Notes under the pieces: generated by a model
What the model was told of the DNA's origin: nothing
The model's input: the letters and a program-made list of their open reading frames with translations, nothing else
Database searches by the model: none
Position numbers and translations under genes: made by a program
Origin: Lachnospiraceae bacterium
GTDB lineage: Bacteria > Bacillota > Clostridia > Lachnospirales > Lachnospiraceae
Direction of reading: 5' to 3'
DNA: 50,974 nucleotides
Assembly: GCA_017444015.1 (NCBI GenBank)
Contig: JAFSXN010000123.1
Span: forward strand, 1 to 50,974
In this document: positions 3,381 to 28,230 of the stretch, one piece after another
How the letters are laid out: each line of letters begins with the position of its first letter
Position numbering within the stretch: position 1 is the stretch's first letter

Positions 3381-3393
3381 TTTGATCCCCTCC

Positions 3394-6026: not shown

Positions 6027-6057
6027 ATGCTAACATATCCCCCGGGGGACACCGCAA
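6027..6057 (-). promoter_or_regulatory. MerR-type promoter of the merR-chemoreceptor operon
   Basis: On the minus strand TTGCGG (6052-6057), a 19-bp spacer, then TAGCAT (6027-6032). On the plus strand the spacer reads ACATATCCCCCGGGGGACA and contains the perfect dyad TCCCCCGGGGGA. A 19-bp spacer with a centred dyad is the signature of MerR-activated promoters. It matches the NRPS promoter spacer at 17 of 19 positions. Confidence 0.8.
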
Positions 6058-6098: not shown

Positions 6099-6851
6099 CT
6101 ACGGTACCGGTATGACCACCCTTACGGAAAAGATCCCTCCCTCCGCGTGGAAATCCACGATACCTCCGTATTTTTCTACTGTTCTTTCAATGCTCAAGAC
6201 GCCGATCCCCGTCCCGTCCGGTCGCCTCGGCCGGTCCGGCTCCTTTAGCACAAGTCCTCTTCGGCAGGTGTTTTCCACCTGGATCAGAAATCTTCCGTTC
6301 TTGATCTGAAGCTTCGCATCGATCCGCTTTTTTTCTTCCTCCGAATTAAGACATCCGTTTACCGCGTTTTCCAGGATATTCCCGACAAGCGCCGTCAGAT
6401 CCATCGCTCCCATAAACAGCTTCTCGGGCACCTTTGCCAGAGCCTGAAAGGAGATCCCCTCTCCCTCCGCCCGCTCCTTATAGACGGATAAAATACTGTT
6501 CAGCTGAACATTCAGGCTGAACACCTGCTCCGAGCCGGAAAGCTCCTTCTCCGCCTCCTCAAGATAACTCAGCGCCTCCTTATTATTCCCGTCTCTTAAG
6601 TATTCCAGGACTACTCTTTTATGGTGGCGGACATCATGCGCCATCCTTCTTATCTCGTTCTGTCTGGTATTTACCGCCTCGATCTGCCGGACCAGAAAGG
6701 CGTTATCCTGCTCGATAAGTCTTGCCTGTGTCAGCTCCTCCATATAGGACGCTACAAGAGTCAGCGTATAAAGAATCAGTACATTCATCCCTAAAAGGAA
6801 AAGGAGCAGCAGCAGATAAAAAACATTGTCATAAAGCTCCCGTTCCACCAC
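6099..6851 (-). CDS. Short GHKL-type sensor histidine kinase
   Basis: This 250-residue protein starts at a GTG (6851) after AGAGGAAA. It has one membrane helix (about 9-35), a linker coiled coil, an H-box RRMAHDVRHHKRVVLEYL (about 68-85), the N-box LVGNILENAVNGC, and the G-boxes around RPDGTGIGVLSIERTVEKYGG. AgrC-like kinases usually have five to seven membrane helices before this catalytic part, so the sensor domain looks missing. No response regulator is adjacent; the nearest LytTR regulator is 19 kb away. A frameshifted copy of its 3' end lies at 83-310. It may be a remnant that still reads through, or a kinase that senses through a partner. Confidence 0.75.
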   Translation of the reverse strand: MVERELYDNVFYLLLLLFLLGMNVLILYTLTLVASYMEELTQARLIEQDNAFLVRQIEAVNTRQNEIRRMAHDVRHHKRVVLEYLRDGNNKEALSYLEEAEKELSGSEQVFSLNVQLNSILSVYKERAEGEGISFQALAKVPEKLFMGAMDLTALVGNILENAVNGCLNSEEEKKRIDAKLQIKNGRFLIQVENTCRRGLVLKEPDRPRRPDGTGIGVLSIERTVEKYGGIVDFHAEGGIFSVRVVIPVP

Positions 6852-6922
6852 CTGCCATTTCCTCTAATCTTATTTTATTTTGGTGGAAATATTATAGTAT
6901 AAACAACTTCTCCAGGGATCGT

Positions 6923-11866: not shown

Positions 11867-13639
11867 CTATGAGGTTACCTCCTGCGTGGTTGTCCCGACT
11901 CCTACTACAACGGTTACAATCGTATTGTTAAACCCTAATACCCGGTTATAGTCCACCGTCATGGGAAGGCTACGAAGCATCTTAAGCCCGGTGATCTCCT
12001 TCCCCTCGTCATCCTGAAATTCCACAGGGTTAAAAATAACTCCGTTATCTCTTACGCGCAGTATAACATCATCCGCGCTGATCCGTAAGAAGATATCAAC
12101 GGAATCCTCCTTCCCGCCGTAGGCGTATTTCGCAATGTTTACACAAAGCTCCTCCGCGGCGATCCCCAAAAGATTCCCAAGACTCGAAGGCAGGTGGTTC
12201 TCCCCACAGAGCCCAATCACCTTCTCGGAAGCCTCTACCGCGTTCTCGATCTTACTTACAATGGAAAAGTCGTAAAGCGCTGCGCCCTCCTCTGTGGCCT
12301 TGGGCAAAAGAATCCCCTGCTTTCCGGTCTTTTTCGCCTTCTGACAGAGATACATCCAGACAGAGCCCATTGCAAGAAGTGGCGAAACGGCAAAGGATAA
12401 CCAGATGAGCTTCGGCGCAAAGACGCCAAAAAGCCATATCACCGGGATAAAGCAGACGATTCCCTCAACGACCGTCAGTACGGAAGCTGTATTTTTACCG
12501 TCCGTTGCCTGTAAACAGGAGCGAAAGATGTGCATCGCTCCTGTGAGCGGTATGCTTAAAGCAAACATCCGAAAGGCGGTATCAAGGAGCGCCGAAGCCT
12601 CCGGTGAGGTAACACCGAAGATTGCCCCAAACTGCCTCGGAAATGCCTCAAATAGAACCATAAGGATAAGGCAGACCGTTCCCGTAACCTTCGCCGCGGT
12701 ATTTAGCATCGCTTTCAGACCCTTATAGTCCCTTTCCCCGTACAGTGCCCCGCCGATGGGTAACATCGTCTGGGTCGTTCCGCCGTAAAAGATAGTAGCA
12801 ATGCTGTCTGCCGAAATACACACCGCAGCGACCTCTGAGCCAACAAGCCCCGCAGCCGTAATGATGATCGAGTTCATAACGAAGGTTCGAAGGAACAGGC
12901 AGGCATACATAAGCGCTGACGGAAGCCCTGTCTTTAAGGTGCTTCCGATTAAGGCGAGGTCTTCCTTTCCCAAGCTTGTAAAAAACACACTTCGTTTTTT
13001 TGATTTAAGATATATAACGCTGCAGAAAAGCCCGGCAAAATACCCAATATTCGTCGCCCATCCGGCGCTTCCGATTCCAAGGCCCATAAGCCCCATAAAG
13101 ATATAATCAAACAGCAGATTGACGGCATTTGACAGGATCGGGACCGTGATCGCAAGCGTTTTCAGCCCGTCTACGCGGATATAGGCAGATACGCCGTTAG
13201 ATAAGAGTACAAGGAATCCTAAGAATAACATCGGGAACAGATAATCGCAGACCGCCTGATATAGCCCCGGTTCTCCTACGGAAAGGGCTCGCGCAATCGG
13301 CACCCGAAAGACAAACCCCACCGCTCCCATAAGAAGCATGGCGGCAGCGCCCAGGACAATGGAGATCGTAAAGCACTTATCCGCGTTCTTTTGATCACGG
13401 CTCCCCTTATAGGTCACGGCTAAGGTACTGCCGCCGTTGATAAAAAGACCATAGAGAAGATTGATCACGCAGATGATCGGCGCGGTCAGATTGGTCGCCG
13501 CAAGATCGACGGAGCTTAAAAGATTTCCCACCATGATCCGATCTACGATCGTAGCTATCGACGCGCTGCCGCTCATGGCCAGGGTCGATAAAAAATATTC
13601 CCGATATTTTTCCTGTATCAGTCTTCCGTTTCGTTCCAT
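11867..13639 (-). CDS. MATE-family exporter fused to a histidine-kinase-like ATPase domain
   Basis: I chose ATG 13639 (590 residues) because AGGGAGAG precedes it; an in-frame ATG at 13714 would overlap the NRPS end and has no good ribosome site. Residues about 1-435 form a twelve-helix MATE multidrug/Na+ antiporter (GSASIATIVDRIMVGNLL, LFINGGSTLAVTYKG). Residues about 460-590 form a HATPase_c domain of the RsbW/SpoIIAB type, with N-box AAEELCVNIAKYAYGG and G-box RVRDNGVIFNP. This fusion is known from Clostridia; the ATPase may act as an anti-sigma-type kinase on a STAS partner. It follows the NRPS by 40 bp and is the obvious candidate to export the product. Confidence 0.85.
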   Translation of the reverse strand: MERNGRLIQEKYREYFLSTLAMSGSASIATIVDRIMVGNLLSSVDLAATNLTAPIICVINLLYGLFINGGSTLAVTYKGSRDQKNADKCFTISIVLGAAAMLLMGAVGFVFRVPIARALSVGEPGLYQAVCDYLFPMLFLGFLVLLSNGVSAYIRVDGLKTLAITVPILSNAVNLLFDYIFMGLMGLGIGSAGWATNIGYFAGLFCSVIYLKSKKRSVFFTSLGKEDLALIGSTLKTGLPSALMYACLFLRTFVMNSIIITAAGLVGSEVAAVCISADSIATIFYGGTTQTMLPIGGALYGERDYKGLKAMLNTAAKVTGTVCLILMVLFEAFPRQFGAIFGVTSPEASALLDTAFRMFALSIPLTGAMHIFRSCLQATDGKNTASVLTVVEGIVCFIPVIWLFGVFAPKLIWLSFAVSPLLAMGSVWMYLCQKAKKTGKQGILLPKATEEGAALYDFSIVSKIENAVEASEKVIGLCGENHLPSSLGNLLGIAAEELCVNIAKYAYGGKEDSVDIFLRISADDVILRVRDNGVIFNPVEFQDDEGKEITGLKMLRSLPMTVDYNRVLGFNNTIVTVVVGVGTTTQEVTS

Positions 13640-13679
13640 CACATATCTCTCCCTCTCTTTGTCAATTTCTCCGGTAAAA

Positions 13680-16600
13680 TCATCGTCCCAGATTATCCTC
13701 GTCAAAGAACCCAAGCCCCATTAACCCGGAAATAAACTGCCTGATATAAGTGCTGTCCGTAGCGTTCCAATAGAAGCCCAGGCGTCCCAGCACCTGATTC
13801 GAATACTCACACTTGACCTGTACCGGCACTGCGTTGCCGTTCATCCCCTGATATGCGAGCATGCTCTGGAAGATCGCGGCCTTCTTCGGATCCTTCTCTG
13901 CCTCTGAAAGCGCCTGTACAAATTCCTGATCCTCGACCACCGCTATCTCTAGGCCTACCTCGTTCATGATCCGTATCACATCAATCATCGGGATCACATG
14001 GCTGTTGATCGCATGGAACAGGCAGCATTCCTTTGGCGTTCTCGCTAATTGCAGAAAGCTCTTCGCGCTTAAATCAATAGGTCCCATCCGAAGTGGGTTG
14101 TTCATCATCAGATACGGGAAACGCTTTAAGATCGCAAAGCTTCGTAACCTTCCCATAGAGCTGTTGCTTAGGAAGTTGATCTGGAATTCTCCGTCCGATT
14201 CCCTTGCGGCAAGAGTTCCCACACGGATAATTTTAGCGTCTAACCCCTGCTCCGCCACAGCGGAAAGCACCTCGATCTCCGCCTGCATCTTGGAGGAGGT
14301 ATACTGGTTCTCCAGCACCTGCCCGAAATACAGGCTCTGTTCATCTAACGCCCGAATCTGTGAAGGATTCGAAACAATGAGCGCTCCCGCTACAGAAGTC
14401 GTTGAGAAATGGATGAGGCGCGCTCCCGTTTCCTCGCAGAAGCGGATACAGTTTTTCGCTCCTCCCACATTGATATCCTCGATATCCGTTCCGCTGGAAA
14501 AATGCTTTACATTGGCGGCGCAGTTAAAGACCGTATCAATGGGGAGCTTTTTTAGCGCCTCAAAGGTTGCGTAATCCGTCACGTCTCCGTCGATCGCCTC
14601 AATTCTGTCATCCGCCTCCGCAAATTCCTCACTGAAATAGTAGATCAGCATATTTTTCAGTCGCTTTCCCGCGCTCTCAAAGCGGCCCTTGCGGACAAGG
14701 CAATAAGCGCATCCTTTCTCGGTCCGCAGGTACTGTGCAAGTACATGGATCCCCATATACCCCGTCGCCCCGGTCAACAGGATATTTCCAATCTCCCGCC
14801 TCTCTCCTGCCTGGAAGGAGGCCAGGGTGTTCCTTGAAAGAACTTCGTCGATCTTTGTATAATCCTGTCTGTCAAACCGCAAGGTAGAATCGCTGAGCGA
14901 TTCTTTCATGTCAGATTTGACAAGCAAATCTGACGCGTCCGCTTCGCGGTACCGCAGGGTAGAAAGCGTTTGGGCGGACGATTCCTCCTTGATAAAGAGC
15001 AAAGCCAAAGCCCTTGGCGTCTTGTATTTAAAGATATCACCATATTTTAACGGATAGCCCGCGTCCGTCGCTTCGATCATGATACTGGTCGCGGCAAGGC
15101 TCGTACCTCCGATGGCAAAGAAATCATCCGCCGCGCCGACCTTATCAACCTCCAATACGTTCTCAAAGAGGGAGCAGAAGAAGCGTTCGATCTCGTTAAC
15201 CGGCGGCTCATATTCTTCCTGCTTAAGAACAACTGGCTCGGGCAGCGCCTTAAGATCCGTTTTCCCATTCAGGGTCGTAGGAATGGTATCGACCTGCATA
15301 ATAGCAGTAGGTACCATATAATGCGTCAGCTTCTTTGCAAGTGCATCCCTTAGATCCTGCACATCGATCTTACGCTCCGCAGTAAACCATGCGCAAAGAT
15401 TATCCTGTCCATTCAACTTCCGAACAGCAGCTACCGCCCTTACAATTCCATCCTGCTCCTCTATCAGTCCCTCGATCTCGGAAAGCTCGATCCGAAGTCC
15501 CCGAAGCTTTACCTGCCCGTCCATACGTCCCAAAATCAGGACATTTCCGTCTCTGTCCCATTTCGCGTAGTCGCCGGAGCGGTAAACCCTCTCCCCGTTA
15601 TACAAAACAAACCGCTGTTTTGTCTGCTCCGGGAGATTCCTGTATCCCTTTGCAACTCCCGGCCCGCCGATCAAAAGCTCTCCGGTAACACCTCTGGGAA
15701 CTCTGTTCCCGTCCAGATCAACGATATATTCGGAGTAATTTAACAAAGGTCTTCCGACGGAAATATGTTCCGCGTTATTTAACAGGGCCATATTGGAAGA
15801 GATCGTCGTTTCGGTAGGTCCGTAAGTATTGATAATATCCCGTACACGAAGCTCCCGCAGCCGCTTAAGCAGAGCGACAGGGTAGGCTTCTCCGCCTGCC
15901 AGGACCAGAGCGCATTTACTCAGGGCATCCGCGAAAGGCTTGTATTCCAGATACTGTACGTAGCGTGACGGAGTGCCGTTCATAGCGTCAACCTTATGCT
16001 CATTCATAAGCCGCGTCAGTGCTATGGGATCGTTCATCTGCTCCTCATTGGCAAAGACAACCGTTTTTCCGTTACAGAAAACACCGAGCGTATCCTTGAG
16101 AGAAAGGTCGAAAGAGACAGTCGTTACAGCAAGCATCGTTTGGACGCCTTTATTGATGACATCATACAGAATATTGGCAGGATGAAGGGTACAGAAGCTG
16201 CAAATCCCCTCGTGTTTCAGCATGACGCCCTTAGGCTTTCCCGTCGAGCCCGAGGTATAGATCAAATAGGCCAGATCTTCTCCCGTAAGCTCTACCTCCG
16301 GATTCTCTGTCTTGGCACCTGTTAACAGTTCCTCGATAAAGAGGGTGTTTTCTTCGGGATAAGCCTCCCCCTTCTCCTTCGTTGTAATGAGGAAGGCAGC
16401 TTCGGAATCTTCAAGGATCGTCTGGATCCGCTCCGTTGGATATTCCGGATCGCAGGGAATAAAGGCGGCACCGGCCTTTAATACGCCAAAGAGCGCCGCG
16501 AAATAAAAGCTCCGTCTCGGAAGCAGAAGCACAGCGGTGTCGCCCCTCTTTACACCCTTATCGATCAAATTCCACGAGATACGGTTGGCCGTCTCGTTTA

Positions 16601-19600
16601 ACGCCTTAAAGGTAAGCGTCTGATCGCACGCGATGAGAGCTGTCTGATCTGGAGTAAGCGCTGCCTGCTTCTCAAATACTCTGTGCAGGAGCTTTTCCGG
16701 AATCTCCGCCTTCGCGCTCTGCCTGTATCCTTCAATGATCTTCTCTTCCTTTTCACTTAAGAGCGAAAGCGTTTTTACGGGAGCAGAGGTTTCTTTAAGC
16801 ATCCGTTCCGTCACAGTTTTTAACGATTCCGCAAGGGTCTTCATATAATCCTTTGTATAGAGCGCGTCGTTATAGCGGACCATAATACCATATTGCCCGT
16901 CATGCTCGATAATGGCGATCACAATCTTGAATTTCGGCGTTTCGAGCCGCATCGGGATACTTTCAAAGGCTTCGCCCCCGATATTCCCGCCCTCCGCGGT
17001 CATACCGATCTGGCACTCATACATGATCTCTGTCGTATAGCCGTACTTTGACGCAAGCTCCGCGAAGGGATAGCTCTGGTGGCGGATACCGTTCTTCATT
17101 GCAAGGTCTGATTCGTCAATCAGCTCCTTTACCGTATAATCCCTGTCAAAGTTCATCGCAAGCGGCAGCGTATGGACAAACATCCCTAAGAGCTTATGGG
17201 TTTTGAGCGCCTCTCTTCCGGAAGAGATCGTGGATAAAAAGATATCCCTTCGTCCTGCGAACCGGGAAACAGTATAAAAGCTTACCGCAAGGAAGAAGGA
17301 GGAGGGACTTACCTCGCTTCTCCGACAGAAAGCATCCACCGCCTCCCTGGAAACCACCTGATACACCTCCGTAAGCTGTCCGTTTACGTTGTCATTTTCC
17401 ACGCTTCCCGTCCGGTCTGCAGGGATCTCCGCGGGCGCTTCGAAGGGCTTAAACATTTCATCATAATATGCTTCCGCTTCTTTGCGGTTCCCGGCTTGCC
17501 CGGGCCGCGCAGAATTTGCTTCCAAATTCTGCATAAAAGAATCGCTTTGCGATTCTTCCTTATATGAGGGTCCCTCCCGTAAAGCGGCATCCTCCTTCGC
17601 GTAATCAAAATAGGTATAAGCCGAAGGCGTAAGCGTCTCTCCCGCGTAGGCTCTGCCGATCTCCTTAAGCAGCACGCCGTTTGAAAAGCCGTCAAATACC
17701 AGATGATGAATGTCATACAGCAGATAAGTCTTTCCGTCTTTGCAGTTTACGACCGCAAACCGGTAAAGCGGTCCTGCGTTTAGATTGAACGGACGGACAA
17801 AGGTGCTTCTATACTCTGAGAATTCCGCCTCGGTCATGGAAAGCATCTCTACCTCAGGCTCTAACGAGTCGTTTCTGACCTGCGATAAAGCTCCGTTGAT
17901 TATCGCGAAATGTGTATTGATATAGCTGTGAGCCCTGACTGCTGCCTTTACAGCTTCTGAAAGCCGCTCTGCGTCGATCGAAGCAAAGGCGAAGCACATC
18001 GGAATATTATAGAGCGTATCCTCCTCCCGCTTCATAGCATCATAGTAAACGGCAAGCTGAACCGAGGATAACGGATAGGATGTCTCCTGAGAGACTTCCC
18101 CGGAATCTTCCGTAGACGGAGCCTCGCCCGCGGAAAAGCCCTGCTTCATCCATTCCTCAAAGATCAGGTTCTCGATATCGACAATACTGGCCCCGTCTAA
18201 AAGCTTAGCTATCGGTATCTCTACCCGGAAGCGGTCGGCAAGGGTAGATACCAGTCCGATGGCGCTGATGCTCGTTAGCCCGTATCTTGTAAGACTTGCC
18301 GAAGGAGACAGCTCTGCTTCTCCAAGCGTTTTCTTTACGACCGCGGCAATTTCCTCCTCAAACCGGGTCATCGGACGGGCCTTCTCCTCCTCTTCGGGCG
18401 TCGTCTCCGACATCACCGGCTCCGGAAGGGCCCGCTTATTCACCTTCTGGTTCTGATTTAACGGAATGCTGTCGATCTGCATGATGCACTCCGGAACCAT
18501 ATAGGGCGGCTTCCTCTCCCCGATAAACCGGCGCAGCGCTTCCATATCAACCGGATTCTCCCCCGTAAGATACGCCGCAAGGAACTTTCCTCCGGCTTTG
18601 GCATCAGAGGCCTGTACCGTTACGTCACTGACACCGGGGAACTCCCGAATGACGTTTTCTACCTCCGTAAGCTCGATCCGAAAGCCCCGGACTTTAACCT
18701 GTCCGTCGTTTCTTCCGACAAAGTCAATGTTTCCGTCCTCTGTCCACCTGACAATATCGCCGGTCTTGTATACACGCTCATAACCCGCTTCCTTCGTAAA
18801 CGGGTTTTCGATAAAGACCTCCGCCGTTTTCTCCGGACGGTTCAGATATCCTCTTCCCACGGAAAAACCCGAAATCAGGAGCTCTCCCGGAACACCAGGC
18901 GGAAGGATCCTTCCGTCTTCATCTACGACGTACAGCTTGAAATTATCTAAAGGCCTGCCGATGGGAACCCGTTTATAGAAACGGTCTATCGGATAGACCG
19001 TGGTAACGATCGTACACTCTGTCGGACCGTAGAGATTATAAAACGTAAAGGATTTTCCCTCCGGATACATGGGCGCTAACTTCTCCCCGCCCACCGAAAG
19101 ATACTTTAACGTGGTCCCCGTATAGTATTCCGCAAACTGCCGTCCTACCTGGGTGGTCATAAAGCTGTGGGTAACGCCGTTTTCGTCAAAATACCGCGCG
19201 AGCTTTGGAAAGTCTAACCGCATATCCTCCGCAATAATATGGACGCAGGCCCCGGTCGTTAACGCCGGGTAGAGATCCATCATATCGGCGTCGAATCCGT
19301 AGCTTGCGTAGGCTGCAACAACAGAATCCTCCTTCAGATCATAGTAGCGTCGATACCAGCTTACGAAATTGCAGAGGTTTCGATGCTCTAAGATCACGCC
19401 CTTTGGTGTCCCCGTAGAGCCGGAGGTATAGAGTACGATAAACCCATCCTCAGGCATTGGCGACTCGATTTCAAAAGAAGCAGGCGGCAGCCCTTCGATC
19501 TCATCGAGGTACACTACCTCTCCCGCATAGCCGCTTATCAGATTCCTTAACTCCCTGTCCGCGATCAGAAGCTTTGCCCCTGCGTCATGGACCATAAATT

Positions 19601-22600
19601 CCAGTCTTTCGGTCGGGTAGGTGGAATCAAGCGGCTGATAGAGCGCCCCGGCCTTCAGCACTCCGAGAGAGGCAAGCACCATATATTCGCACCGGGGGAT
19701 CAGGATCGATACTACATCCTCCTTCCCCATCCCCTTTCCCTTTAAGAAGTCAGCGATCTGTTCCGAGATCTCATCGACCTGCCTGTAGGTATATTTCTTA
19801 TCCAGATAAACCACGGCAGGCGCGTCCGGCGTAGCGGCTGCCTGACGGCGAAACAGCGTAACGATGTCCGTGATCTCTATATCCGCTTTTACGTCATTAA
19901 AGCCCGCAAGCTGCTTCTCTGTCTCTTCATCAAGCAGCGAAATCTCACTTAAACTCTCCTTCGCAAGGAAGCCAAGGAGCACCTGCTCATAAATCCTTAA
20001 GAACCTGCGGATAAAGCTCTCTGTATACAGCTCCTTTCGAAAGCTGCAAAGATAAGCCACTCCTTCCCCGTAGGGATAGACCTGCAGCTCAATATTAGCC
20101 TTGGCCTCCGAAAGTGAAAGCGGGATCTGTTTGGATGGCTTTCCGCAGAAGGTTTCCTCCTCCGGTTCAAAGACTCCCTGCCAGGCAAACAGAAGCTCCG
20201 AACGTACACCTAAATCCCTGCTGATTTCTTCAAAGGAATAGACGTCGTAGGACTGGCTGTCCACAAGCTGCCTGCCGACCTCGGAAATATATTCCGCTAC
20301 GGGGCGCTTCCCTGCCTTGCAAAGTACCGGATAGGTCCGAACGAACATAGAGACGCTCTCCATAAACCTCGGGTCGTTCCGACCGTTGTTGATCGTCGTA
20401 AAGATCGCGTCGCTCCGTCCGCAGAATTTTGCCACTGTTACGCCAAAGGCTGCCGTAAAGAACGCGTTCTCGCTGACACTCTTTTCCGTACAGAATTGCT
20501 TGATGGCCTTTAAATCCACCCGATCCGCAGAGATCAGGAGCTCTCCGGAGCCGGTCGTCTCCTCCTGCACATCCGAAATCGGCAGACAGTCCGGCTCACA
20601 CCCGTCAAACAGATCGGTATAATAGGCCTTTGCCCGATCATAATGCTCGCTTCCCCGAAGCTTCTCCTCCACAAGCGCCGCCTCAAAGCCGCTGTATTTC
20701 TCCTTTGTAAGCGTCTCACCGGCATAGGCTCGGGAAATATCCCGAAGTAAAATAAGCCTTGCCATTCCGTCATAGATAATATGATGCACGTCGAGGAAAA
20801 GATATGTTTTTTCTTCCTTTTCCGCCCGTATCAGCGCAACCCTGAAAAGCCTGTCCTTTAACAGGTCAAAGGGTTTTACTAACGTATCCTTTACCTCCGC
20901 GATCTCACCGCAGGTAATCTCTTTGATATCCGCCTCGGAAAAAGGCTCGTCGTCCATCCGTTTCTGTCTGAGCTCCCCTTTTTCCGTAAGGAACAGGCGG
21001 GTCTTCAGATAAGGATGGGCTTCGATTGATGAAACTACGGCGCTTTTTAAACGATCCTTCTCGATTTCCGAAGACAGCTCTAAAAGCGACGGTATATTAT
21101 AGATCGTAGTTCCCGGGTGGGATTTGGACTCAAAGAAGATACCCTCCTGTGTCTTTGTAAGAGCGTACTCCGAAAGAACCTCGAATTCCTCTTCCTTATC
21201 CGTCCCGTGAATCAGCCTCTCTAATTTCTCGACCGTATCGTTTTCCTTAAAGTCACGGATCTGGATATTGACCCCGAAGGTTTCCGAAAGCCTTAAAGAA
21301 AGCGCCACGCTGTTAAGGCTCGTCAGCCCCGCGGAATACAGCTCGGTTCTTACGCCGAAATTCGTATTGCCGATGATCTCCGCCGCGATGTCAAGGATCT
21401 GCTTCTGCGTTTCGTTCTGAGGCGATACGATTTCTTCCTTTAATACCTCCGGCTCAGGCAGCGCCTTTAAGTCCGTCTTGCCGTTAGCGGTCATAGGGAT
21501 ATCATCAACATGGGTAAATGCGACGGGAACCATATAGGCGGTAAGCTTTGCCCGCAGCGCGTCTCTGAGCCCATGCACATCAATTTCCCTGTCACTTGTA
21601 TACCAGGAACAGAGCTGATCCTCGTCGCCGATCTTTTTGATCGCCACAACCGCCTGCTTAATACCTGGCTGCTGCTCCATTAACCCCTTGATTTCATCAA
21701 GCTCGATCCGAAGGCCCCGCAGCTTAACCTGATTATCCATACGTCCGAGAATCAGGACATTTCCATCCGTATCCCACTTCGCGTAATCGCCGGAACGGTA
21801 GACCCGTTTTCCCCGGTAGGTGATAAACTTCTGCGCCGTAAGCTCCGGAAGGTTACGATAGCCTATGCCTACGCCGATCCCTCCGATCCAGAGCTCACCG
21901 ACGACACCTACGGGAACAGGCTCGCCGTCCTGATCTACAATATAGCTCTTATAGTTTAACAGAGGCTTTCCGGCTGCGACATGGTCCATATGGATCATAT
22001 CCGCGCCGTTGCAGGCCATGGTCGTCTCCGTCGGCCCGTAGGCATTCTCAATGTGCGCATCGGGTGAAAGCACCTTCTGAAGGTTTTCTAACAGCGTCTG
22101 GGGTACGCCTTCCCCACCGACCATAACCAGACAGCACTTCGACAGCGCTTCCCTGAAGGGCGCGTATTCCATGTACTGCATAAGCCTTGAGGGTGTCGCG
22201 TCAAAGCAGTTTGCCCCGGTCTGCTTAAATAACGAGGTCAGCCTCCTTGGATCGTTTAGCTCCTCCTCATTCGCAAATACCAGCGTCTTGCCGTTTAACA
22301 GGGCTCCCGCGGTTTCCTGGAAGGACATGTCAAAGGATACGGTCGTTACGCCAAGTATCGCCTTAACCTGATTTAAAATTACATGATAATGCTCATTGAC
22401 GGGATGCGGATATACGCAGTTGACGACGCAGACATGCTTCATCATCACACCCTTGGGCTTGCCCGTAGAGCCGGAGGTATAGATCATATAGGCCATATCC
22501 TCCCCGGTCAGCTCTACCTCGGGATTCCCTTTATCCTCGCCCGACAGAAGCTCTTTTATATCTACCACCGCGTCCTTTGCGTAATCGCTTACATGCTCCT

Positions 22601-25600
22601 CTGTGGTAATAATGCAGGAGGAACCCGAATCCTTAAGGATATGGCGGATACGCTCCGCAGGATACTCCGGATCGCAGGGAATAAAGGCTGCCCCGGTTTT
22701 CAAAACGCCGAACATAGCCGGGAAATAAAAGCTCCGTCTCGGAAGCAGCAGAACCGCGCTGCCGCCTTTGCCGATTCCCCGGGCCATAAGGCTTGCCGCT
22801 ACCCGGTTGGCCTCGCTGTTTAACTCTCCATAGGTAAGCGTCCGGTCACAGGCAATTACCGCGGTATGCTCCGGCGTTTTTGCCGCATGGGCCTCGAATA
22901 CTCGATGAAATACCGTTTCCGGCAGCTCCGCTTCCCCGGTTACGCTGAAATCTTCGAGCTGCTTTATCTGCTTTTCGGGAAGGGCTGTTAAATCCCTAAC
23001 CAGGACAGCATCGCCCCAGGCAAGTCTTCGCAGGCCTTCTAAAATCTGCTCTAAGAAGTTTTCGCAGACGATCGAATCAAACAACTCCGAAGGATACTGC
23101 AAAAGGATCTGCATAGAGCTTTTGCTCCTTCGGATAACAAGGCTTAAGTCCCTCGCAAGCTTTTGAAGCGGCGATACGGCGTCGATCGACAGCGTTCCGT
23201 CATAATAGGCCTCGGGAACAGGCAGGAAATTCACGGACATGTCAAACAGTGGATTCCTGGATTCATCTCGTTCCTTACAGAAGCGGTTCACCAGTGTCTC
23301 AAAGGGAATATTGCAGGCGCGGGTCGCCTGACGCACCGTTTCAGCGGTTTCCCCAAGATAGTCAAAAAGCGTCTCGCCGCGCCCCGGTTGTATACGGACC
23401 GGAACGGTATTCACGAACATCCCTACCATATCCTTCGAGAAGGTATCGCGGGTATTTACGGGGATACCGACCACAACGTCCGAACTTGCGCAGTATTGTC
23501 CCAGTACGGCGGCGGAGACGGACAGCATCAGCTCAAACAGAGTCACTCCGAACTGTCTCGCCTTTTCTTCTAACGCAGTGATTTCCTTCGGATTCAGCGC
23601 GACCTGTAAGACCGTATCGGTAAGCGGCTGGAGCTTCGGCCGGGAGCCTTTGATAGGCGTTTCGTTTGCGGGAACGCCGTCCTCAAACATTTTCTCATAA
23701 AACGCAAGGGCTTCCGCTTCCCGCTCTTTATCCGCTTCAGATCTTACGGAAACGCTGTAGAGATCCGCTGCGTCCTCCGGAACAGCTTCCCCTTTCAGTC
23801 TCGCGATCAGCTCCTTGACAAAGGGTTCAGCGCTTCCTCCGTCAAAGGCGATATGATGAATCTGCAGGCGCAGCCCAAAGCCGCCATCCCTGATCGGGTA
23901 AAGCCAGAGTCTTGCGGGGATCCCTTCCTCCAGTAGGAACGGCCTGCCGGGATCCTCAAGCAGCGCTTCAAAGTCCTCCCTGTCAAGCGTATCCCCATCT
24001 GCTATTTCCGGGGCTTTTGCCATAAGGAATCGGCATGGCTTCCCATCCTGCTCCCCATAGCGGGAATGCAGGGATTCATGCGCCAGGAAAAGCTCCGCGA
24101 CCGCGTTTTTGATCGTATCCGCATCCGCTCCCTCGATAAAGAAGCCGATATTCAGATTATAGGAAATCGAATCAGGATCTAACTTCTGTTCGAGATACAT
24201 CCCGCGCTCCATAGGTGTAAGCGGATACTGACTGACCTTTGCCAAAGCAGCGTTTGCCGGTATATCCTCCTGTTTTTCCGCTTCGCTCCCTCGCTTTTTC
24301 AGGAGCTCCGCAAGTTTTCTTACGGTTTTTGCCGCATACAGATCGGCTCCCGCAAGCGGAAGGTCCGCAAGCACCGTAAGAAGTCCCGCCGCCTTTACGG
24401 AATCGCCTCCCATGGCAAAGAAATCATCATCCAACCCTATGCGCTCCGCACTGAGGATCTCGGCAAAGGCCTTGCACAAGGTCTCCTGCAAAGGGGTCTC
24501 GGGCGCGGCATACTCCGTCTGAAAGCTCCGAACATCCGGCGCGGACAACGCGTTTCGGTCTAACTTTCCGTTAGCGTTCAGCGGAAGTTTTTCCATCGGT
24601 ACAAAGAAAGCGGGAACCATGTACTCCGGCAGGGTCTCTAAAAGCGCCAGACGCAGCCTTTCATCCGGTATAGCCTCTTTCTCCTTCGGTACATAGTAGG
24701 CGGCCAGGTAGGTACTGTTTCTGGCATCGGTAAAATCCCTGACCGCGGCATCCAAAACGCCCTCGACCTTTCGAAGCGCCGCCTCGATCTCTCCGGGCTC
24801 TACCCGCTGACCGTTAATCTTAACCATCCAGTCTCTTCGATTGAGGTAAAGGATATTCCCGTCGGAAAGGCATTTTGCCAGATCGCCGGTCCGTAACATC
24901 CTGGGATTTCCGTCCCTTTCTTTAAAGGGATTTTCCGTAAAGGTCTTAGCGCTCTCCTCGGGACGGTTCAGATAGCAGCTTGCGAAATTACCGGAGAGGC
25001 AAAGCTCGCCCTCCTCCGCCTCATTTCCATCCTCGTCCAGTATATACGCCGCCATATCGCCCATGGGCTTTCCCACCGGCGTATTGTCGTAAGCCTTATC
25101 CAGCATAAACGCAAGAGCTCCGCCGCAGGTTTCGGTCATGCCGTAGGTATTCATGATCTGGAAGTCTTCCGAGTAAATCCCGGAGAGGCGTTCGCTTCCG
25201 GCCAGAACCAGACGTAATCTGGAATTCGGAGCCGGCTTGAAATAGCGCAGCATCTTCGGACTGATGAAGGTGATCGTTACCTGTTCTTCTGCTAAAAGTG
25301 TCGCCAGTCCCGCAGGATCCCGCATCGAAGACATGGGAATCAGGACGTTGGTTGCTCCAAACACCAGCCCGCCAAATAGAATGGTAGCGCCGGCAATAAA
25401 GAAGAAAGGCGCTCCCAGACCGATCACATCCGATTCGTTCGCCTTCGCGAAATCCAGATTTCTGCTCGCGCAGTCATATATAGCCAGATGGTTGATCAAA
25501 ACACCCTTGGGGTTTCCCGTCGAGCCGGAGGTATAGACCAAAACCGCAGGATCCTCAGGCGCAATCGGGACGCTTACGGCAATCGGCGTATGATCCGCCA

Positions 25601-25952
25601 CATCTTTCAGATAATCCGGCGTGATTACCGCTTTCGCCTTACAGTCATCAAAGATATACTGAAGTCTGTCGGGCGGGTAGGAACCGTTCAGCGGGGCAAA
25701 GGGCGCGCCTAATTTCGCTGCCGCAAGCATCGAAAGGATGAATTCAATGCTGTGAGGCAGTACGATGGCAACGGCATCTCCCTTTTTTACGCCCTGCTCT
25801 TTGAGCTTTGCCGCGATCTTACGGGCCTTGATATCCGCCTCCTCATAGGTGAGGCTGACCCCGGTCCGCGGATCTCTCACAGCAATCCTGTTTCTGAATT
25901 TCAGTACGTTTTCTTCAAACGCTGTTCTGAATGTGTTCGGCTTCTTCTCCAT
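13680..25952 (-). CDS. Non-ribosomal peptide synthetase, acyl A-T / (C-A-T)x3 / terminal reductase
   Basis: A 4090-residue enzyme starting at ATG 25952 after AGGAGGG. Approximate domains: A1 1-480, T1 485-560 (GGDSVKA), C1 575-1000 (HHIAFDGG), A2 1015-1500, T2 1510-1585 (GLTSLNS), C2 1595-2020 (HHIIYDG), A3 2030-2510, T3 2520-2600 (GLTSIS), C3 2620-3075 (HHLVFDG), A4 3087-3570, T4 3580-3655 (GGTSLAA), reductase 3715-4090 with TGATGYMG and YTSSK. All A domains keep YTSGSTG and the A10 lysine. A1 lacks the FDxS aspartate that holds an amino group and reads APFFFIAGAT there, so it probably loads a fatty or aryl acid. Release by the NAD(P)H reductase gives an aldehyde or alcohol; there is no thioesterase. 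Predicted product: N-acyl-tripeptide aldehyde/alcohol. No phosphopantetheinyl transferase or MbtH gene is in the window. Two in-frame palindromic inserts lie at 14887-14949 and 17505-17555. Confidence 0.95.
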   Translation of the reverse strand: MEKKPNTFRTAFEENVLKFRNRIAVRDPRTGVSLTYEEADIKARKIAAKLKEQGVKKGDAVAIVLPHSIEFILSMLAAAKLGAPFAPLNGSYPPDRLQYIFDDCKAKAVITPDYLKDVADHTPIAVSVPIAPEDPAVLVYTSGSTGNPKGVLINHLAIYDCASRNLDFAKANESDVIGLGAPFFFIAGATILFGGLVFGATNVLIPMSSMRDPAGLATLLAEEQVTITFISPKMLRYFKPAPNSRLRLVLAGSERLSGIYSEDFQIMNTYGMTETCGGALAFMLDKAYDNTPVGKPMGDMAAYILDEDGNEAEEGELCLSGNFASCYLNRPEESAKTFTENPFKERDGNPRMLRTGDLAKCLSDGNILYLNRRDWMVKINGQRVEPGEIEAALRKVEGVLDAAVRDFTDARNSTYLAAYYVPKEKEAIPDERLRLALLETLPEYMVPAFFVPMEKLPLNANGKLDRNALSAPDVRSFQTEYAAPETPLQETLCKAFAEILSAERIGLDDDFFAMGGDSVKAAGLLTVLADLPLAGADLYAAKTVRKLAELLKKRGSEAEKQEDIPANAALAKVSQYPLTPMERGMYLEQKLDPDSISYNLNIGFFIEGADADTIKNAVAELFLAHESLHSRYGEQDGKPCRFLMAKAPEIADGDTLDREDFEALLEDPGRPFLLEEGIPARLWLYPIRDGGFGLRLQIHHIAFDGGSAEPFVKELIARLKGEAVPEDAADLYSVSVRSEADKEREAEALAFYEKMFEDGVPANETPIKGSRPKLQPLTDTVLQVALNPKEITALEEKARQFGVTLFELMLSVSAAVLGQYCASSDVVVGIPVNTRDTFSKDMVGMFVNTVPVRIQPGRGETLFDYLGETAETVRQATRACNIPFETLVNRFCKERDESRNPLFDMSVNFLPVPEAYYDGTLSIDAVSPLQKLARDLSLVIRRSKSSMQILLQYPSELFDSIVCENFLEQILEGLRRLAWGDAVLVRDLTALPEKQIKQLEDFSVTGEAELPETVFHRVFEAHAAKTPEHTAVIACDRTLTYGELNSEANRVAASLMARGIGKGGSAVLLLPRRSFYFPAMFGVLKTGAAFIPCDPEYPAERIRHILKDSGSSCIITTEEHVSDYAKDAVVDIKELLSGEDKGNPEVELTGEDMAYMIYTSGSTGKPKGVMMKHVCVVNCVYPHPVNEHYHVILNQVKAILGVTTVSFDMSFQETAGALLNGKTLVFANEEELNDPRRLTSLFKQTGANCFDATPSRLMQYMEYAPFREALSKCCLVMVGGEGVPQTLLENLQKVLSPDAHIENAYGPTETTMACNGADMIHMDHVAAGKPLLNYKSYIVDQDGEPVPVGVVGELWIGGIGVGIGYRNLPELTAQKFITYRGKRVYRSGDYAKWDTDGNVLILGRMDNQVKLRGLRIELDEIKGLMEQQPGIKQAVVAIKKIGDEDQLCSWYTSDREIDVHGLRDALRAKLTAYMVPVAFTHVDDIPMTANGKTDLKALPEPEVLKEEIVSPQNETQKQILDIAAEIIGNTNFGVRTELYSAGLTSLNSVALSLRLSETFGVNIQIRDFKENDTVEKLERLIHGTDKEEEFEVLSEYALTKTQEGIFFESKSHPGTTIYNIPSLLELSSEIEKDRLKSAVVSSIEAHPYLKTRLFLTEKGELRQKRMDDEPFSEADIKEITCGEIAEVKDTLVKPFDLLKDRLFRVALIRAEKEEKTYLFLDVHHIIYDGMARLILLRDISRAYAGETLTKEKYSGFEAALVEEKLRGSEHYDRAKAYYTDLFDGCEPDCLPISDVQEETTGSGELLISADRVDLKAIKQFCTEKSVSENAFFTAAFGVTVAKFCGRSDAIFTTINNGRNDPRFMESVSMFVRTYPVLCKAGKRPVAEYISEVGRQLVDSQSYDVYSFEEISRDLGVRSELLFAWQGVFEPEEETFCGKPSKQIPLSLSEAKANIELQVYPYGEGVAYLCSFRKELYTESFIRRFLRIYEQVLLGFLAKESLSEISLLDEETEKQLAGFNDVKADIEITDIVTLFRRQAAATPDAPAVVYLDKKYTYRQVDEISEQIADFLKGKGMGKEDVVSILIPRCEYMVLASLGVLKAGALYQPLDSTYPTERLEFMVHDAGAKLLIADRELRNLISGYAGEVVYLDEIEGLPPASFEIESPMPEDGFIVLYTSGSTGTPKGVILEHRNLCNFVSWYRRYYDLKEDSVVAAYASYGFDADMMDLYPALTTGACVHIIAEDMRLDFPKLARYFDENGVTHSFMTTQVGRQFAEYYTGTTLKYLSVGGEKLAPMYPEGKSFTFYNLYGPTECTIVTTVYPIDRFYKRVPIGRPLDNFKLYVVDEDGRILPPGVPGELLISGFSVGRGYLNRPEKTAEVFIENPFTKEAGYERVYKTGDIVRWTEDGNIDFVGRNDGQVKVRGFRIELTEVENVIREFPGVSDVTVQASDAKAGGKFLAAYLTGENPVDMEALRRFIGERKPPYMVPECIMQIDSIPLNQNQKVNKRALPEPVMSETTPEEEEKARPMTRFEEEIAAVVKKTLGEAELSPSASLTRYGLTSISAIGLVSTLADRFRVEIPIAKLLDGASIVDIENLIFEEWMKQGFSAGEAPSTEDSGEVSQETSYPLSSVQLAVYYDAMKREEDTLYNIPMCFAFASIDAERLSEAVKAAVRAHSYINTHFAIINGALSQVRNDSLEPEVEMLSMTEAEFSEYRSTFVRPFNLNAGPLYRFAVVNCKDGKTYLLYDIHHLVFDGFSNGVLLKEIGRAYAGETLTPSAYTYFDYAKEDAALREGPSYKEESQSDSFMQNLEANSARPGQAGNRKEAEAYYDEMFKPFEAPAEIPADRTGSVENDNVNGQLTEVYQVVSREAVDAFCRRSEVSPSSFFLAVSFYTVSRFAGRRDIFLSTISSGREALKTHKLLGMFVHTLPLAMNFDRDYTVKELIDESDLAMKNGIRHQSYPFAELASKYGYTTEIMYECQIGMTAEGGNIGGEAFESIPMRLETPKFKIVIAIIEHDGQYGIMVRYNDALYTKDYMKTLAESLKTVTERMLKETSAPVKTLSLLSEKEEKIIEGYRQSAKAEIPEKLLHRVFEKQAALTPDQTALIACDQTLTFKALNETANRISWNLIDKGVKRGDTAVLLLPRRSFYFAALFGVLKAGAAFIPCDPEYPTERIQTILEDSEAAFLITTKEKGEAYPEENTLFIEELLTGAKTENPEVELTGEDLAYLIYTSGSTGKPKGVMLKHEGICSFCTLHPANILYDVINKGVQTMLAVTTVSFDLSLKDTLGVFCNGKTVVFANEEQMNDPIALTRLMNEHKVDAMNGTPSRYVQYLEYKPFADALSKCALVLAGGEAYPVALLKRLRELRVRDIINTYGPTETTISSNMALLNNAEHISVGRPLLNYSEYIVDLDGNRVPRGVTGELLIGGPGVAKGYRNLPEQTKQRFVLYNGERVYRSGDYAKWDRDGNVLILGRMDGQVKLRGLRIELSEIEGLIEEQDGIVRAVAAVRKLNGQDNLCAWFTAERKIDVQDLRDALAKKLTHYMVPTAIMQVDTIPTTLNGKTDLKALPEPVVLKQEEYEPPVNEIERFFCSLFENVLEVDKVGAADDFFAIGGTSLAATSIMIEATDAGYPLKYGDIFKYKTPRALALLFIKEESSAQTLSTLRYREADASDLLVKSDMKESLSDSTLRFDRQDYTKIDEVLSRNTLASFQAGERREIGNILLTGATGYMGIHVLAQYLRTEKGCAYCLVRKGRFESAGKRLKNMLIYYFSEEFAEADDRIEAIDGDVTDYATFEALKKLPIDTVFNCAANVKHFSSGTDIEDINVGGAKNCIRFCEETGARLIHFSTTSVAGALIVSNPSQIRALDEQSLYFGQVLENQYTSSKMQAEIEVLSAVAEQGLDAKIIRVGTLAARESDGEFQINFLSNSSMGRLRSFAILKRFPYLMMNNPLRMGPIDLSAKSFLQLARTPKECCLFHAINSHVIPMIDVIRIMNEVGLEIAVVEDQEFVQALSEAEKDPKKAAIFQSMLAYQGMNGNAVPVQVKCEYSNQVLGRLGFYWNATDSTYIRQFISGLMGLGFFDEDNLGR
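14877..14964. repeat. In-frame palindromic element A inside the NRPS, with flanking direct repeat
   Basis: The element core (14887-14949) is two hairpins: GAATCGC/GCGATTC, then after TTTCAT the ten-base stem GTCAGATTTG/CAAATCTGAC, then GCG. It is flanked by CCGCAAGGTAGAA (14877-14889) and CCGCAGGGTAGAA (14952-14964), 12 of 13 identical, period 75 bp. The insert therefore adds exactly 25 codons. It falls in the linker between T4 and the reductase, residues about 3664-3690, where STLRY and STLRF mark the repeat in the protein. Confidence 0.8.
17505..17555. repeat. In-frame palindromic element B inside the NRPS, opposite orientation
   Basis: Read on the minus strand it is GAATCGC/GCGATTC, TTTTAT, then GCAGAATTTG/CAAATTCTGC and GCG, the same design and nearly the same sequence as element A. 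The second stem differs from A by paired changes that keep all ten base pairs. It encodes about residues 2792-2818 (SQSDSFMQNLEANSARPGQ) inside the third condensation domain; the homologous stretch of the second condensation domain lacks this segment. Confidence 0.8.
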
Positions 25953-26029: not shown

Positions 26030-26060
26030 GTTGTAACATATCCACCGGTGGACATGTCAA
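26030..26060 (-). promoter_or_regulatory. MerR-type promoter of the NRPS operon
   Basis: On the minus strand TTGACA (26055-26060), a 19-bp spacer, then TACAAC (26030-26035). The plus-strand spacer ACATATCCACCGGTGGACA holds the perfect dyad TCCACCGGTGGA. It differs from the merR promoter spacer at two positions only, A to C and T to G, placed symmetrically so that both dyads remain perfect. The leader to the ATG at 25952 is about 70 bases. Confidence 0.8.
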
Positions 26061-26119: not shown

Positions 26120-26180
26120 GTCAAATTGGTACTGATTTACGTCAAATTTGTAATCCGGGACGGATATGATGTATTATAAT
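26120..26180 (+). promoter_or_regulatory. LytTR-type direct repeats and promoter of the two-component genes
   Basis: GTCAAATTGGTA (26120-26131) and GTCAAATTTGTA (26141-26152) match at 11 of 12 positions with a 21-bp period, the spacing typical of LytTR regulator sites. They lie just upstream of TATAAT (26175-26180), which has no recognisable -35, as expected for an activator-dependent promoter. Single related sequences occur at 3-14 and 1893-1904. Autoactivation by the adjacent regulator is inferred. Confidence 0.6.
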
Positions 26181-26209: not shown

Positions 26210-26935
26210 ATGCTTAACATAGCGCTTGTGGACGATGACCTGACTGAGCTTTCCTCCACCCGCCTGCAAATTGAACACTGGCGAAACGGACCGGCACAGC
26301 TTTCCACCTTCTCCTCTGCCCGGGAACTGCTGAACGCCATGGAAAGCGGAGGAGAATTTGATCTCTATCTGTTAGATGTGATCATGCCTGAAATGGACGG
26401 TATTGAGCTGGGACGCGTGATCCGTAAAAAGGACAGGGACGGGGCGATCGTATTCTTGACGACCTCGCCGGACTTCGCGCTTCAGAGCTATGAGGTCTGG
26501 CCGTTACAATATCTGTTAAAGCCCGTGGATGCGGGGATGCTCTGGCAGGTGCTCGACCGGGCGGAAGAAAGTCAAAGCAGACAAACGGCCGGTATTCTGG
26601 TTCATACCCGTTCGGGGGATGTATTTTTACAGCTCAGCGACATTTTATACGCGGAAAAAACAGGCCGTTTTATCCGTTACATCTGCCGCGGTCAAAGCAT
26701 AGAGAGTGTAACGTTGATCGGGTCCTTTCGCGAGGCTGTGGAACCGTTGCTTGAAGACGGCCGCTTCGTACTTTGCGGGGCGAGCTTTGCCGTTAATCTG
26801 GCAGAGCTGTCGCTTGTGGACAAGACCGGGGCGGTATTGTCTTCGGGGATCCGGCTGGAAATGCCAAGAAGAGCTGTTTCCGCCCTGCGAAGCAGCTGGA
26901 TGGCCTATTGTCTCGGAGAAAGGGGAAACGAATGA
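26210..26935 (+). CDS. LytTR-family response regulator
   Basis: The 241-residue protein has a receiver domain (1-120) with acidic residues DDD at 8-10, phospho-acceptor Asp56 in LLDVIMPEMDG, and the conserved Lys in LLKP. The LytTR DNA-binding domain follows at about 128-235 (ILYAEKTGRFIRYICRG, then SFREAVEPLLEDGRFVLCGASFAVNL). LytTR proteins act as AgrA-like activators of peptide or virulence loci by binding paired direct repeats. It is translationally coupled to the kinase (stop and start share ATGA) and is divergent from the NRPS operon, whose ATG is 257 bp away. Confidence 0.93.
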   Translation: MLNIALVDDDLTELSSTRLQIEHWRNGPAQLSTFSSARELLNAMESGGEFDLYLLDVIMPEMDGIELGRVIRKKDRDGAIVFLTTSPDFALQSYEVWPLQYLLKPVDAGMLWQVLDRAEESQSRQTAGILVHTRSGDVFLQLSDILYAEKTGRFIRYICRGQSIESVTLIGSFREAVEPLLEDGRFVLCGASFAVNLAELSLVDKTGAVLSSGIRLEMPRRAVSALRSSWMAYCLGERGNE

Positions 26936-28230
26936 ATCATGTCAGTATTCTCAACGTCCTAAGCGGTGTATTCGTACTGGTCAGCGGAGCCGTTCAGACC
27001 ATATGCTTTGTAGAGTCCCGCTTCTCCCGTAAAAAAACTCTTCTGCTGTGCCTTTTGTTTTTCATCCCCTTAACTATCCTGGATCTGGCCTTTTATATCC
27101 GCTACGGCTCGGAGCGCGGCGGACAGCTTTCTCTGTTCATCAATACCCTGCCGGGGCTCATGTTCTTCTGGTTCCTTTCCAGACACCGGGACGGACGGGT
27201 CATCTTCGCGTTTTTCTTTTCCCACATCATCGTCGGGGAAATCGTTTTACTGACCAATATCCCCAACGCGTATCTCACTCCCGAAAGCTGCCTGATCAAT
27301 TTCTTTGGGCGGCTCATCCTCTACCTGGCTCTTGGCTATGTGAGCTTCCGATATCTTCGTGAGCCTTTTTTCCGGGTCCTTAAGGGAGTGGACCGGGAAT
27401 GGGGCGCCTTTGCTTTTCTCCTTGCGATGTATTATCTGACAGCGATCCTTATGTTTAATTTCCCTACAACGATAACCTCCCGGCCGGAGGAATTACCTGC
27501 TATGCTCTTTTTCCTGGCGCTTCTGCCGCTTACCTATTATCTTCTGTTTTCCTCTCTCCTCAGGGAGCTCAGGCTGTCCGAGGCCAGAGAGCAGGAGCAG
27601 CTTCTGACCGTACAGACCGAAGCGCTGAGGCACCGGATCGAGCAGACAGAATATATGGAGAAACAGCTTTCGATCCAGCGCCACGATCTCCGTCACCGCT
27701 TCCAGACGCTGCACGCGATGCTCAAGCGCGGCGAAACGGACGAGGCGCTTCGATATGTCGATGCCTCAACGGAGATACTCGCGGAAACAAAGCCCCGCAG
27801 ATGGTGCGAGAATATCGTTCTGGACGCGATGTTTGCTTCGTATTTCGGCACAGCGGAGGCAGAGGGGATCCGAATCGAGGCCTCGCTTGATGTACCAAAG
27901 GATCTCAGAGTATCCGCGGCTGAGCTCTCGACAGTATTTGCAAACGCGCTGGAAAACGCGATAAAGGCCGTTCAAAAGCTTCCGAAGGAAAAACGGGTCA
28001 TCCGCTGCAAGTGCATAAGACATCCGCAGGTTATGTTCAGCGTCAGCAATCCCTATGAAGACGAGATACATTTTGACGACGAGGGTCGTCCCATCGCGTC
28101 GGAAAGCGCCAATATCAACGGGCACGGCGTCGGAACGATCTCCATTGCGGCCTACTGTGAGAAGTACGGCGCTTTCTGCGAATACGAGGCGTTGGATGGG
28201 TGGTTCACTCTCCGCGTCATGCAGCCCTGA
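26932..28230 (+). CDS. Seven-TM GHKL sensor histidine kinase (AgrC-like)
   Basis: Start is the ATG at 26932, overlapping the regulator stop; in-frame starts upstream lie inside the regulator gene. The 432-residue protein has seven membrane helices over about residues 5-215, a linker coiled coil, an H-box SIQRHDLRHRFQTLHAML around His250, an N-box FANALENAIKAV, and a GHKL G-box NINGHGVGTISIAAYCEKYG. AgrC-type kinases of this layout usually sense a peptide or other membrane-soluble signal. No AgrB/AgrD genes are visible, so the signal is unknown; the NRPS product is one candidate because of the shared intergenic region. Confidence 0.92.
   Translation: MNHVSILNVLSGVFVLVSGAVQTICFVESRFSRKKTLLLCLLFFIPLTILDLAFYIRYGSERGGQLSLFINTLPGLMFFWFLSRHRDGRVIFAFFFSHIIVGEIVLLTNIPNAYLTPESCLINFFGRLILYLALGYVSFRYLREPFFRVLKGVDREWGAFAFLLAMYYLTAILMFNFPTTITSRPEELPAMLFFLALLPLTYYLLFSSLLRELRLSEAREQEQLLTVQTEALRHRIEQTEYMEKQLSIQRHDLRHRFQTLHAMLKRGETDEALRYVDASTEILAETKPRRWCENIVLDAMFASYFGTAEAEGIRIEASLDVPKDLRVSAAELSTVFANALENAIKAVQKLPKEKRVIRCKCIRHPQVMFSVSNPYEDEIHFDDEGRPIASESANINGHGVGTISIAAYCEKYGAFCEYEALDGWFTLRVMQP

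Follow-up and report, generated by a model that had tools for sequence, protein, structure and literature searches.

Gene organisation of the NRPS locus

The window analysed here is a stretch of 50,974 nucleotides from a rumen-type Lachnospiraceae bacterium (contig JAFSXN010000123.1). A minus-strand gene (13680-25952) encodes a nonribosomal peptide synthetase (NRPS) of 4090 residues, with four adenylation, three condensation and four carrier domains and a terminal NAD-binding reductase-type domain. The Pfam counts (4 AMP-binding, 3 Condensation, 4 PP-binding and 1 NAD_binding_4) place the protein among the reductase-ended NRPSs. The best named NCBIfam model is the equivalog of AusA, the aureusimine synthetase, which has the same reductase-type end; however, the score of 1955.3 bits lies below the cut-off of 2500, and the window NRPS differs from AusA in having four adenylation domains. 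The end of the NRPS gene is overlapped by a minus-strand ORF (11867-13714), the true start of which may be internal, encoding a MATE transporter fused to a HATPase_c_2 domain.

Divergent from the NRPS gene, on the plus strand, is a response regulator gene (26210-26935) whose product has a receiver domain (54.1 bits) and a LytTR domain that narrowly misses the Pfam cut-off (18.4 against 22.6 bits). It is followed by an ORF for a GHKL sensor kinase (26908-28230, plus strand), the true start of which is probably internal. A direct repeat with a 21-bp period, GTCAAATTNGTA (26120-26148, without assigned strand), lies between the NRPS gene and the divergent response regulator gene.

A second group of minus-strand genes consists of merR (5146-5976), encoding an intact regulator of 276 residues (P0001) of BmrR/EcmrR type; mcp (3394-5115), directly after merR, encoding a methyl-accepting chemotaxis protein with HAMP and MCPsignal domains; and sbp (1995-3443), an ORF for a substrate-binding lipoprotein whose true start may be internal and which would be the third gene of the proposed operon. 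merR is immediately preceded by a GHKL-kinase-like gene of the same orientation (6099-6851), and a GAAGCC-GGCTTC hairpin with a T run is present on the minus strand between the two genes, suggesting that merR probably starts its own transcript.

Two predicted promoters with nearly identical 19-bp spacers

Predicted minus-strand promoters precede the NRPS gene and merR, at a distance of about 20 kb from each other. The NRPS promoter (26030-26060), read from 26060 to 26030, is TTGACA - TGTCCACCGGTGGATATGT - TACAAC, with the -35 element at 26060-26055, the spacer at 26054-26036 and the -10 element at 26035-26030. The merR promoter (6027-6057), read from 6057 to 6027, is TTGCGG - TGTCCCCCGGGGGATATGT - TAGCAT, with the corresponding elements at 6057-6052, 6051-6033 and 6032-6027. 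The original prediction had claimed a gap of exactly 19 bp between -35 and -10 in both promoters, with 17 of the 19 spacer bases identical and both differences symmetric, and the sequence bears out each of these points. The spacers contain dyads at 26054-26039 and 6051-6036, respectively, each with 7/8 complementary pairs, and the two differing bases are dyad partners, forming A:T in one promoter and C:G in the other. Both -10 hexamers agree with the consensus at 4/6 positions and the merR -35 at 3/6. Comparison of spacings gave the best -10 at 19 bp for both sites, and no consensus promoter with a 16-18-bp spacer was found on the minus strand of either promoter region.

The MerR regulator resembles BmrR and EcmrR

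P0001 alone scored 18.1 bits against the Pfam MerR model, below the cut-off of 21.6, while its orthologue at L149 scored 38.1 bits, above it. No Pfam match was obtained in the C-terminal part of P0001, and a search of the PDB with its sequence gave no match. A profile of seven relatives, in turn, matched EcmrR over residues 17-230 (E 2.3e-12) and BmrR (E 1e-7). Five close sequences were used to build a structure model (mean pLDDT 66). Its fold is closest to that of BmrR (E 1.7e-11, TM 0.43 to full BmrR), and the C-terminal part resembles CtaZ and the effector domain of EcmrR (TM 0.73 by target), with sequence identity to BmrR and EcmrR of 13-16% in these fold comparisons. The N-terminal winged helix-turn-helix of MerR type is thus recognised from the orthologue above the Pfam cut-off and from the profile matches to MerR-family structures, and a GyrI-like C-terminal effector domain from the EcmrR profile match over 17-230 and the moderate model. 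A dyad within a 19-20-bp spacer of the target promoter, a trait of the BmrR/EcmrR subgroup, is also present. Assignment of P0001 to the MerR family, BmrR/EcmrR type, is therefore supported with a model of moderate confidence, and with it the earlier claim of a GyrI/BmrR-like ligand domain in the product of 5146-5976.

The dyad is rare in the genome

A neutral rule (TTG, a 19-bp spacer, -35 and -10 elements each with at least 3/6 consensus matches, and a dyad of at least 7/8 pairs) returned exactly two sites in the window, the NRPS and merR promoters, and none in 15 control loci (211,431 bases), where nine reach 6/8 pairs; relaxation to 6/8 pairs added one site in the window, at 5549. The spacer pattern itself had two exact matches in the window and four rows at up to three mismatches, one of them the NRPS site read from the other strand, compared to 0.06 expected from shuffles. 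In the whole genome (3.77 Mb), 17 matches to the 17-base core at up to three mismatches were found among the matches listed, of which the two exact ones are the NRPS and merR sites, one with a single mismatch is on contig C35, and 14 have three mismatches; the reversed-pattern control gave 15, likewise among the matches listed. A near-match search returned 22 rows at up to two mismatches, and the three that were viewed (on C80, C147 and at C37:46526) are all inside ORFs. Across 61 genomes of the genus and order, 17 one-mismatch matches and no exact match were found outside the own genome (reversed control, 3). The original prediction had proposed a genome-wide scan, in which many unrelated copies of the dyad would count against it; such copies were not found, and the absence of rule sites from the control loci together with the few core matches indicates that the dyad is rare. 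The NRPS promoter thus carries a site in common with the regulator's own promoter and scarce in the genome, as expected if this regulator controls the NRPS operon.

A second merR (L030, 10463-11106) follows the one-mismatch match (C35:10374-10400). It aligns with P0001 in two pieces, at 82% and 74% identity, but residues 119-169 or so are missing and the frame changes, so that this copy is broken. The worry that a MerR paralogue is linked to the dyad therefore holds in part, in that a second merR has its own dyad, but fails in that this copy is not intact; the sole intact close regulator found with P0001 in the assembly is the merR of the window. A further dyad promoter on C35 (19452-19482; TTGCGC - TGTCCCCCGGGGGTCACAT - TACAAT) is followed after about 200 bp by an ORF of 1144 residues whose start is signal-like and whose product appears to be secreted-like. 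These extra dyads on C35 suggest a regulon larger than two promoters. The listed contamination of the assembly is 5.54%. Contamination as the origin of C35 was judged unlikely, given tetranucleotide correlations with the window of 0.94 and 0.95, compared to 0.90-0.97 for seven other stretches of the same genome and 0.76-0.81 for six stretches of other genomes.

On contig C201 (L135) of the same genome, a dyad promoter, TTGCCC-TGTCCATGGGTGGACACAT-TATAAT (6861-6891), precedes a gene for an NMT1-type lipoprotein, and its dyad, TGTCCATGGGTGGACA (C201:6865-6891), fits the wider family consensus. It is a possible further member of the regulon but is not counted as a sure target.

Dyads upstream of related regulators

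Within the genus, 7 of 36 other genomes have relatives of P0001 at 26-31% identity, and among 397 family genomes, a subset drawn from a larger group, the closest are in G221 (53%) and G242 (48%); a scan of a contig collection with P0001 as query gave no relative. Promoter-dyads with 19-bp spacers recur 5' of these genes. The expected site was the best-scoring promoter-dyad in 14 of 18 upstream regions, with the near-identical G015 and G013 loci counted once. In 13 of the 14, at most 4 of 200 shuffles scored as high; the C35 copy gave 20/200. The expected dyad was not the best in the regions of L194, L153, L151 (where the merR start is an estimate) and L081. The site of L194, with 5/8 pairs, sits before mcp and not before merR. 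Against the general pattern, L151 and L081 have no dyad, and the two sites of G443 have 3/8 pairs each.

Among 24 collected sites, some of which were found by pattern and are hence circular as to their likeness, one dyad centre pairs at 72%, compared to 11-35% at all other centres. In 23 of the 24, no other spacing gives a better -10 than 19 bp; the lone exception is the regulator-kinase site of G242, where 16 bp is best. The dyad offset of the collected sites is also that of PmerT of the mercury operon. The covariation score of nine close sites was 0.361, compared to 0.180 after shuffling (0/500 as high) and 0.03-0.13 in controls with slid partners; two further counts, both-sides-changed pairs (134/500) and further pair types (188/500), did not rise above shuffles. 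Comparison of these sites provides good evidence that the P0001 subfamily reads such dyads, and because relatives carry them upstream and the dyad covaries, it is very probably the operator of P0001.

Several of the relatives have neighbours of their own. At L079 (G013) and L078 (G015), a 30%-identical MerR is divergent from genes for small leader-like peptides, with a weak lantibiotic match, and for CPBP-type proteases, and the dyad there is TTGACC-19-TAAATT. Although G013 and G015 count as two species, their contigs, of 7832 and 7841 bases, hardly differ in sequence. At L074 (G011), L075 (G011), L076 (G019) and L077 (G005), MerR relatives are beside or divergent from secreted lipoproteins, one of which is a thermolysin-type (M4) peptidase, and the dyads are of the TTACCATGGGTGGTAA kind.

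Conserved merR, mcp and sbp genes in a proposed operon

Five loci hold merR, mcp and sbp together. The gene order of the window recurs in G242 (L191), an uncultured Lachnospiraceae of another genus from red deer (merR contig CAJOFN010000006.1), whereas merR is divergent from mcp-sbp in G221 (L193) and L192 and downstream of them in L194; L191-L194 are all from Lachnospiraceae MAGs of red deer or roe deer, two of them from rumen or reticulum. The counterparts in G221 and G242 are 71-76% (mcp) and 79-82% (sbp) identical to those of the window. In all five loci, mcp or merR is preceded by a dyad promoter with a 19-bp spacer; four of these have 7/8 pairs and that of L194 has 5/8. An 18.8-kb locus of Butyrivibrio sp. 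VCD2006 (L198) has mcp-sbp with no merR relative and no rule site, and neither a merR relative nor a site was found in three loci with 43-52% identical binding proteins.

Because mcp-sbp adjoins merR in all five loci with the dyad promoter, this pair is the predicted conserved target, and the constant job of this MerR, as judged from the conserved arrangement, seems to be the merR-mcp-sbp operon. The NRPS in turn looks like an added target, and the regulator may be better described as a chemoreceptor-operon regulator that also took charge of an NRPS locus.

The dyad in the NRPS locus of another genus

When 13 genomes were searched with the family consensus, 8 of them yielded 15 rows in total, and the reversed control yielded none. 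The matches in G242 are the merR site (on both strands) and a second dyad at C18:4584-4610, with a core equal to that of the G242 merR site. Contig C18 (25 kb) contains STAS, MATE-HATPase, SpoIIE and LytTR response regulator genes along with a kinase gene and an NRPS of 3049 residues, as well as an ABC-exporter-like pair and a ligase-like gene (the kinase, pair and ligase were named by reading the sequence). The end of this NRPS aligns with the reductase-type domain of the window NRPS, and identities between the two loci are 35% for the NRPS, 30% for MATE-HATPase, 38% for the kinase and 34% for the regulator, the G242 regulator scoring 36.4 bits for LytTR, above the cut-off of 22.6. C35 of the window's own genome carries a pair that matches the two exporter genes of G242 at 82% and 84% identity. 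Thus, G242 resembles the window in its merR-mcp-sbp order, dyad promoter, NRPS, MATE-HATPase and response regulator-kinase genes, but differs in the size of the NRPS, in having merR on a different contig from the NRPS locus and in the place of the second dyad, which is directed towards the regulator-kinase pair and has the exporter genes on its other side. The promoter geometry there is ambiguous, with the best -10 at 16 bp and a further promoter-like TTGACA downstream; like the place of the dyad before the regulator-kinase pair, this counts against the link between MerR and the NRPS. Fusions of MATE to HATPase_c_2, an anti-sigma kinase-like domain, are present in both NRPS loci (11867-13714 in the window and 2807-4552 in L187) and, together with the STAS and SpoIIE genes of G242, suggest that export may be under partner switching.

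G221, in contrast, has merR-mcp-sbp with only its own merR dyad found by the family-consensus search, which counts against the link; three condensation domains lie on one of its contigs, with no 7/8 dyad there. Of the three searched genomes that have a close merR, two therefore carry the dyad inside an NRPS locus, though not in front of the same genes. No 7/8 dyad was found in the second reductase-type NRPS locus of the own genome (C161). Nor was one found in seven other such loci of the genus, all from genomes lacking a close orthologue of merR, which agrees with the proposed link. The arrangement in G242 gives partial independent support to a link between MerR and the NRPS.

Direct repeats similar to that of the window, with AATTTGAC units and a period of about 21 bp, occur at about 11241-11276 of L030 (C35), before genes for a DUF3089 lipoprotein and an exporter, and at about 4945-4982 (minus strand) of L187, before the STAS-MATE-NRPS genes of G242. 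The window and C35 repeats are alike beyond chance (0/1000 shuffles as good), as are those of C35 and G242 (0/1000), and the likeness between window and G242 is not significant (142/1000). The repeats are possible operators of the LytTR-type response regulator.

Proposed regulation and alternative explanations

The promoter architecture, the rarity, conservation and covariation of the dyad and the protein family of P0001 suggest a model in which a MerR dimer would bind the TGTCC-N6-GGAYA dyad inside the over-long 19-bp spacers, and a ligand in the GyrI-like domain would lead to untwisting of the spacer and thereby allow the promoter to be opened by RNA polymerase. We infer the dimer on the dyad and the ligand-driven untwisting and activation from the family (PMC8113463, PMC3431237). 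MerR would control two operons: merR-mcp-sbp, to which its own gene belongs and which is the conserved target, and, in trans, NRPS-MATE. One signal would serve a chemoreceptor with its binding protein and a reductase-ended NRPS together; in G242, MerR probably reaches the NRPS locus via the response regulator-kinase pair. We consider it likely that MerR is a ligand-gated activator of merR-mcp-sbp that also controls the NRPS-MATE operon, and the link between regulator and NRPS is likely to the same degree. The original prediction of MerR as the probable activator of the NRPS operon is partly supported by the predicted operator at the NRPS promoter and by the dyad in the G242 NRPS locus, but needs amendment in that the conserved target is mcp-sbp.

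The constancy of mcp-sbp as the neighbour of merR and the lack of a second dyad in G221 would also suit a narrower role, with MerR controlling merR-mcp-sbp only, the NRPS dyad being a relic or a chance occurrence, and the regulator-kinase pair running the NRPS through the repeat at 26120-26148, which is shared with C35, whose own repeat in turn resembles that of G242. This seems unlikely; against it stand the 17/19 spacer identity with symmetric changes, an exact 17-base core present only twice in 3.77 Mb among the matches listed, and a consensus -35 placed 19 bp from a fair -10. The repeat, for which the likeness of window and G242 does not exceed shuffles, would be compatible with a second layer of control. 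That MerR mainly represses both promoters through the dyads and is released by its ligand, without activation by untwisting, appears very unlikely: the dyad does cover the spacer, where a bound dimer blocks access, and MerR-family proteins can also repress (PMC9909328), but 23 of 24 sites retain a spacing of 19 bp, a promoter of this kind would be weak once released, and activation is the usual action of the family at 19-bp spacers (PMC8113463, PMC3431237). Slightly less probable still is that another regulator reads the dyads, such as the C35 copy, with its own dyad, or one of three more MerR_1 genes of the genome (C36, C124 and C80), because the former is without about residues 119-169 and has a changed frame, the latter were not retrieved with P0001 at E 0.001, and the dyads track P0001 relatives across genomes.

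For the ligand-gated activator preferred here, candidate ligands include something that sbp also binds; the peptide product, given that MerR proteins binding natural products are described; and c-di-GMP or a phenazine, by analogy with BrlR. It is rather doubtful that MerR recognises the peptide made by the NRPS or a close relative of that peptide. On this reading the peptide would switch on its own synthesis and export along with the chemoreceptor-binding protein pair, which would guide the cells by it. The whole would form, with the same low probability, a nonribosomal-peptide signalling and chemotaxis circuit of rumen Lachnospiraceae rewired between genera, running from MerR to the NRPS directly in the window and from MerR through the response regulator to the NRPS in G242.

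Relation to known systems

P0001 shares with BmrR and EcmrR an N-terminal winged helix-turn-helix, a long helix, a GyrI-like C-terminal fold and a dyad in a 19-bp promoter (PMC8113463). Unlike for these proteins, the targets in the window are a chemoreceptor-binding protein operon and an NRPS, with no multidrug pump. The effector domain of TipA is of another type than that of the window MerR. TipA and AlbA are likewise MerR proteins able to sense peptide natural products and to act on their own promoters, but they are resistance sensors; in the TipA and AlbA literature consulted, neither was found to be connected with an NRPS operon of its own cell. A literature search confined to titles and the beginnings of abstracts gave no paper joining a MerR regulator, a chemoreceptor and an NRPS. 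The mechanism is a known one, and the regulon, a chemoreceptor operon plus an NRPS, is unusual.

NRPS clusters are common in rumen genomes, accounting for 5,346 of 14,814 clusters in one report (PMC8241843), from whose main text the word MerR is absent. For one NRPS cluster, it is now possible to name a specific regulator and its probable operator, along with a further target that is conserved. The regulator may offer a handle to switch on the NRPS cluster, and the arrangement prompts a testable hypothesis, namely that production is coupled to a molecule that the cell would also seek or follow through its chemoreceptor and binding protein.
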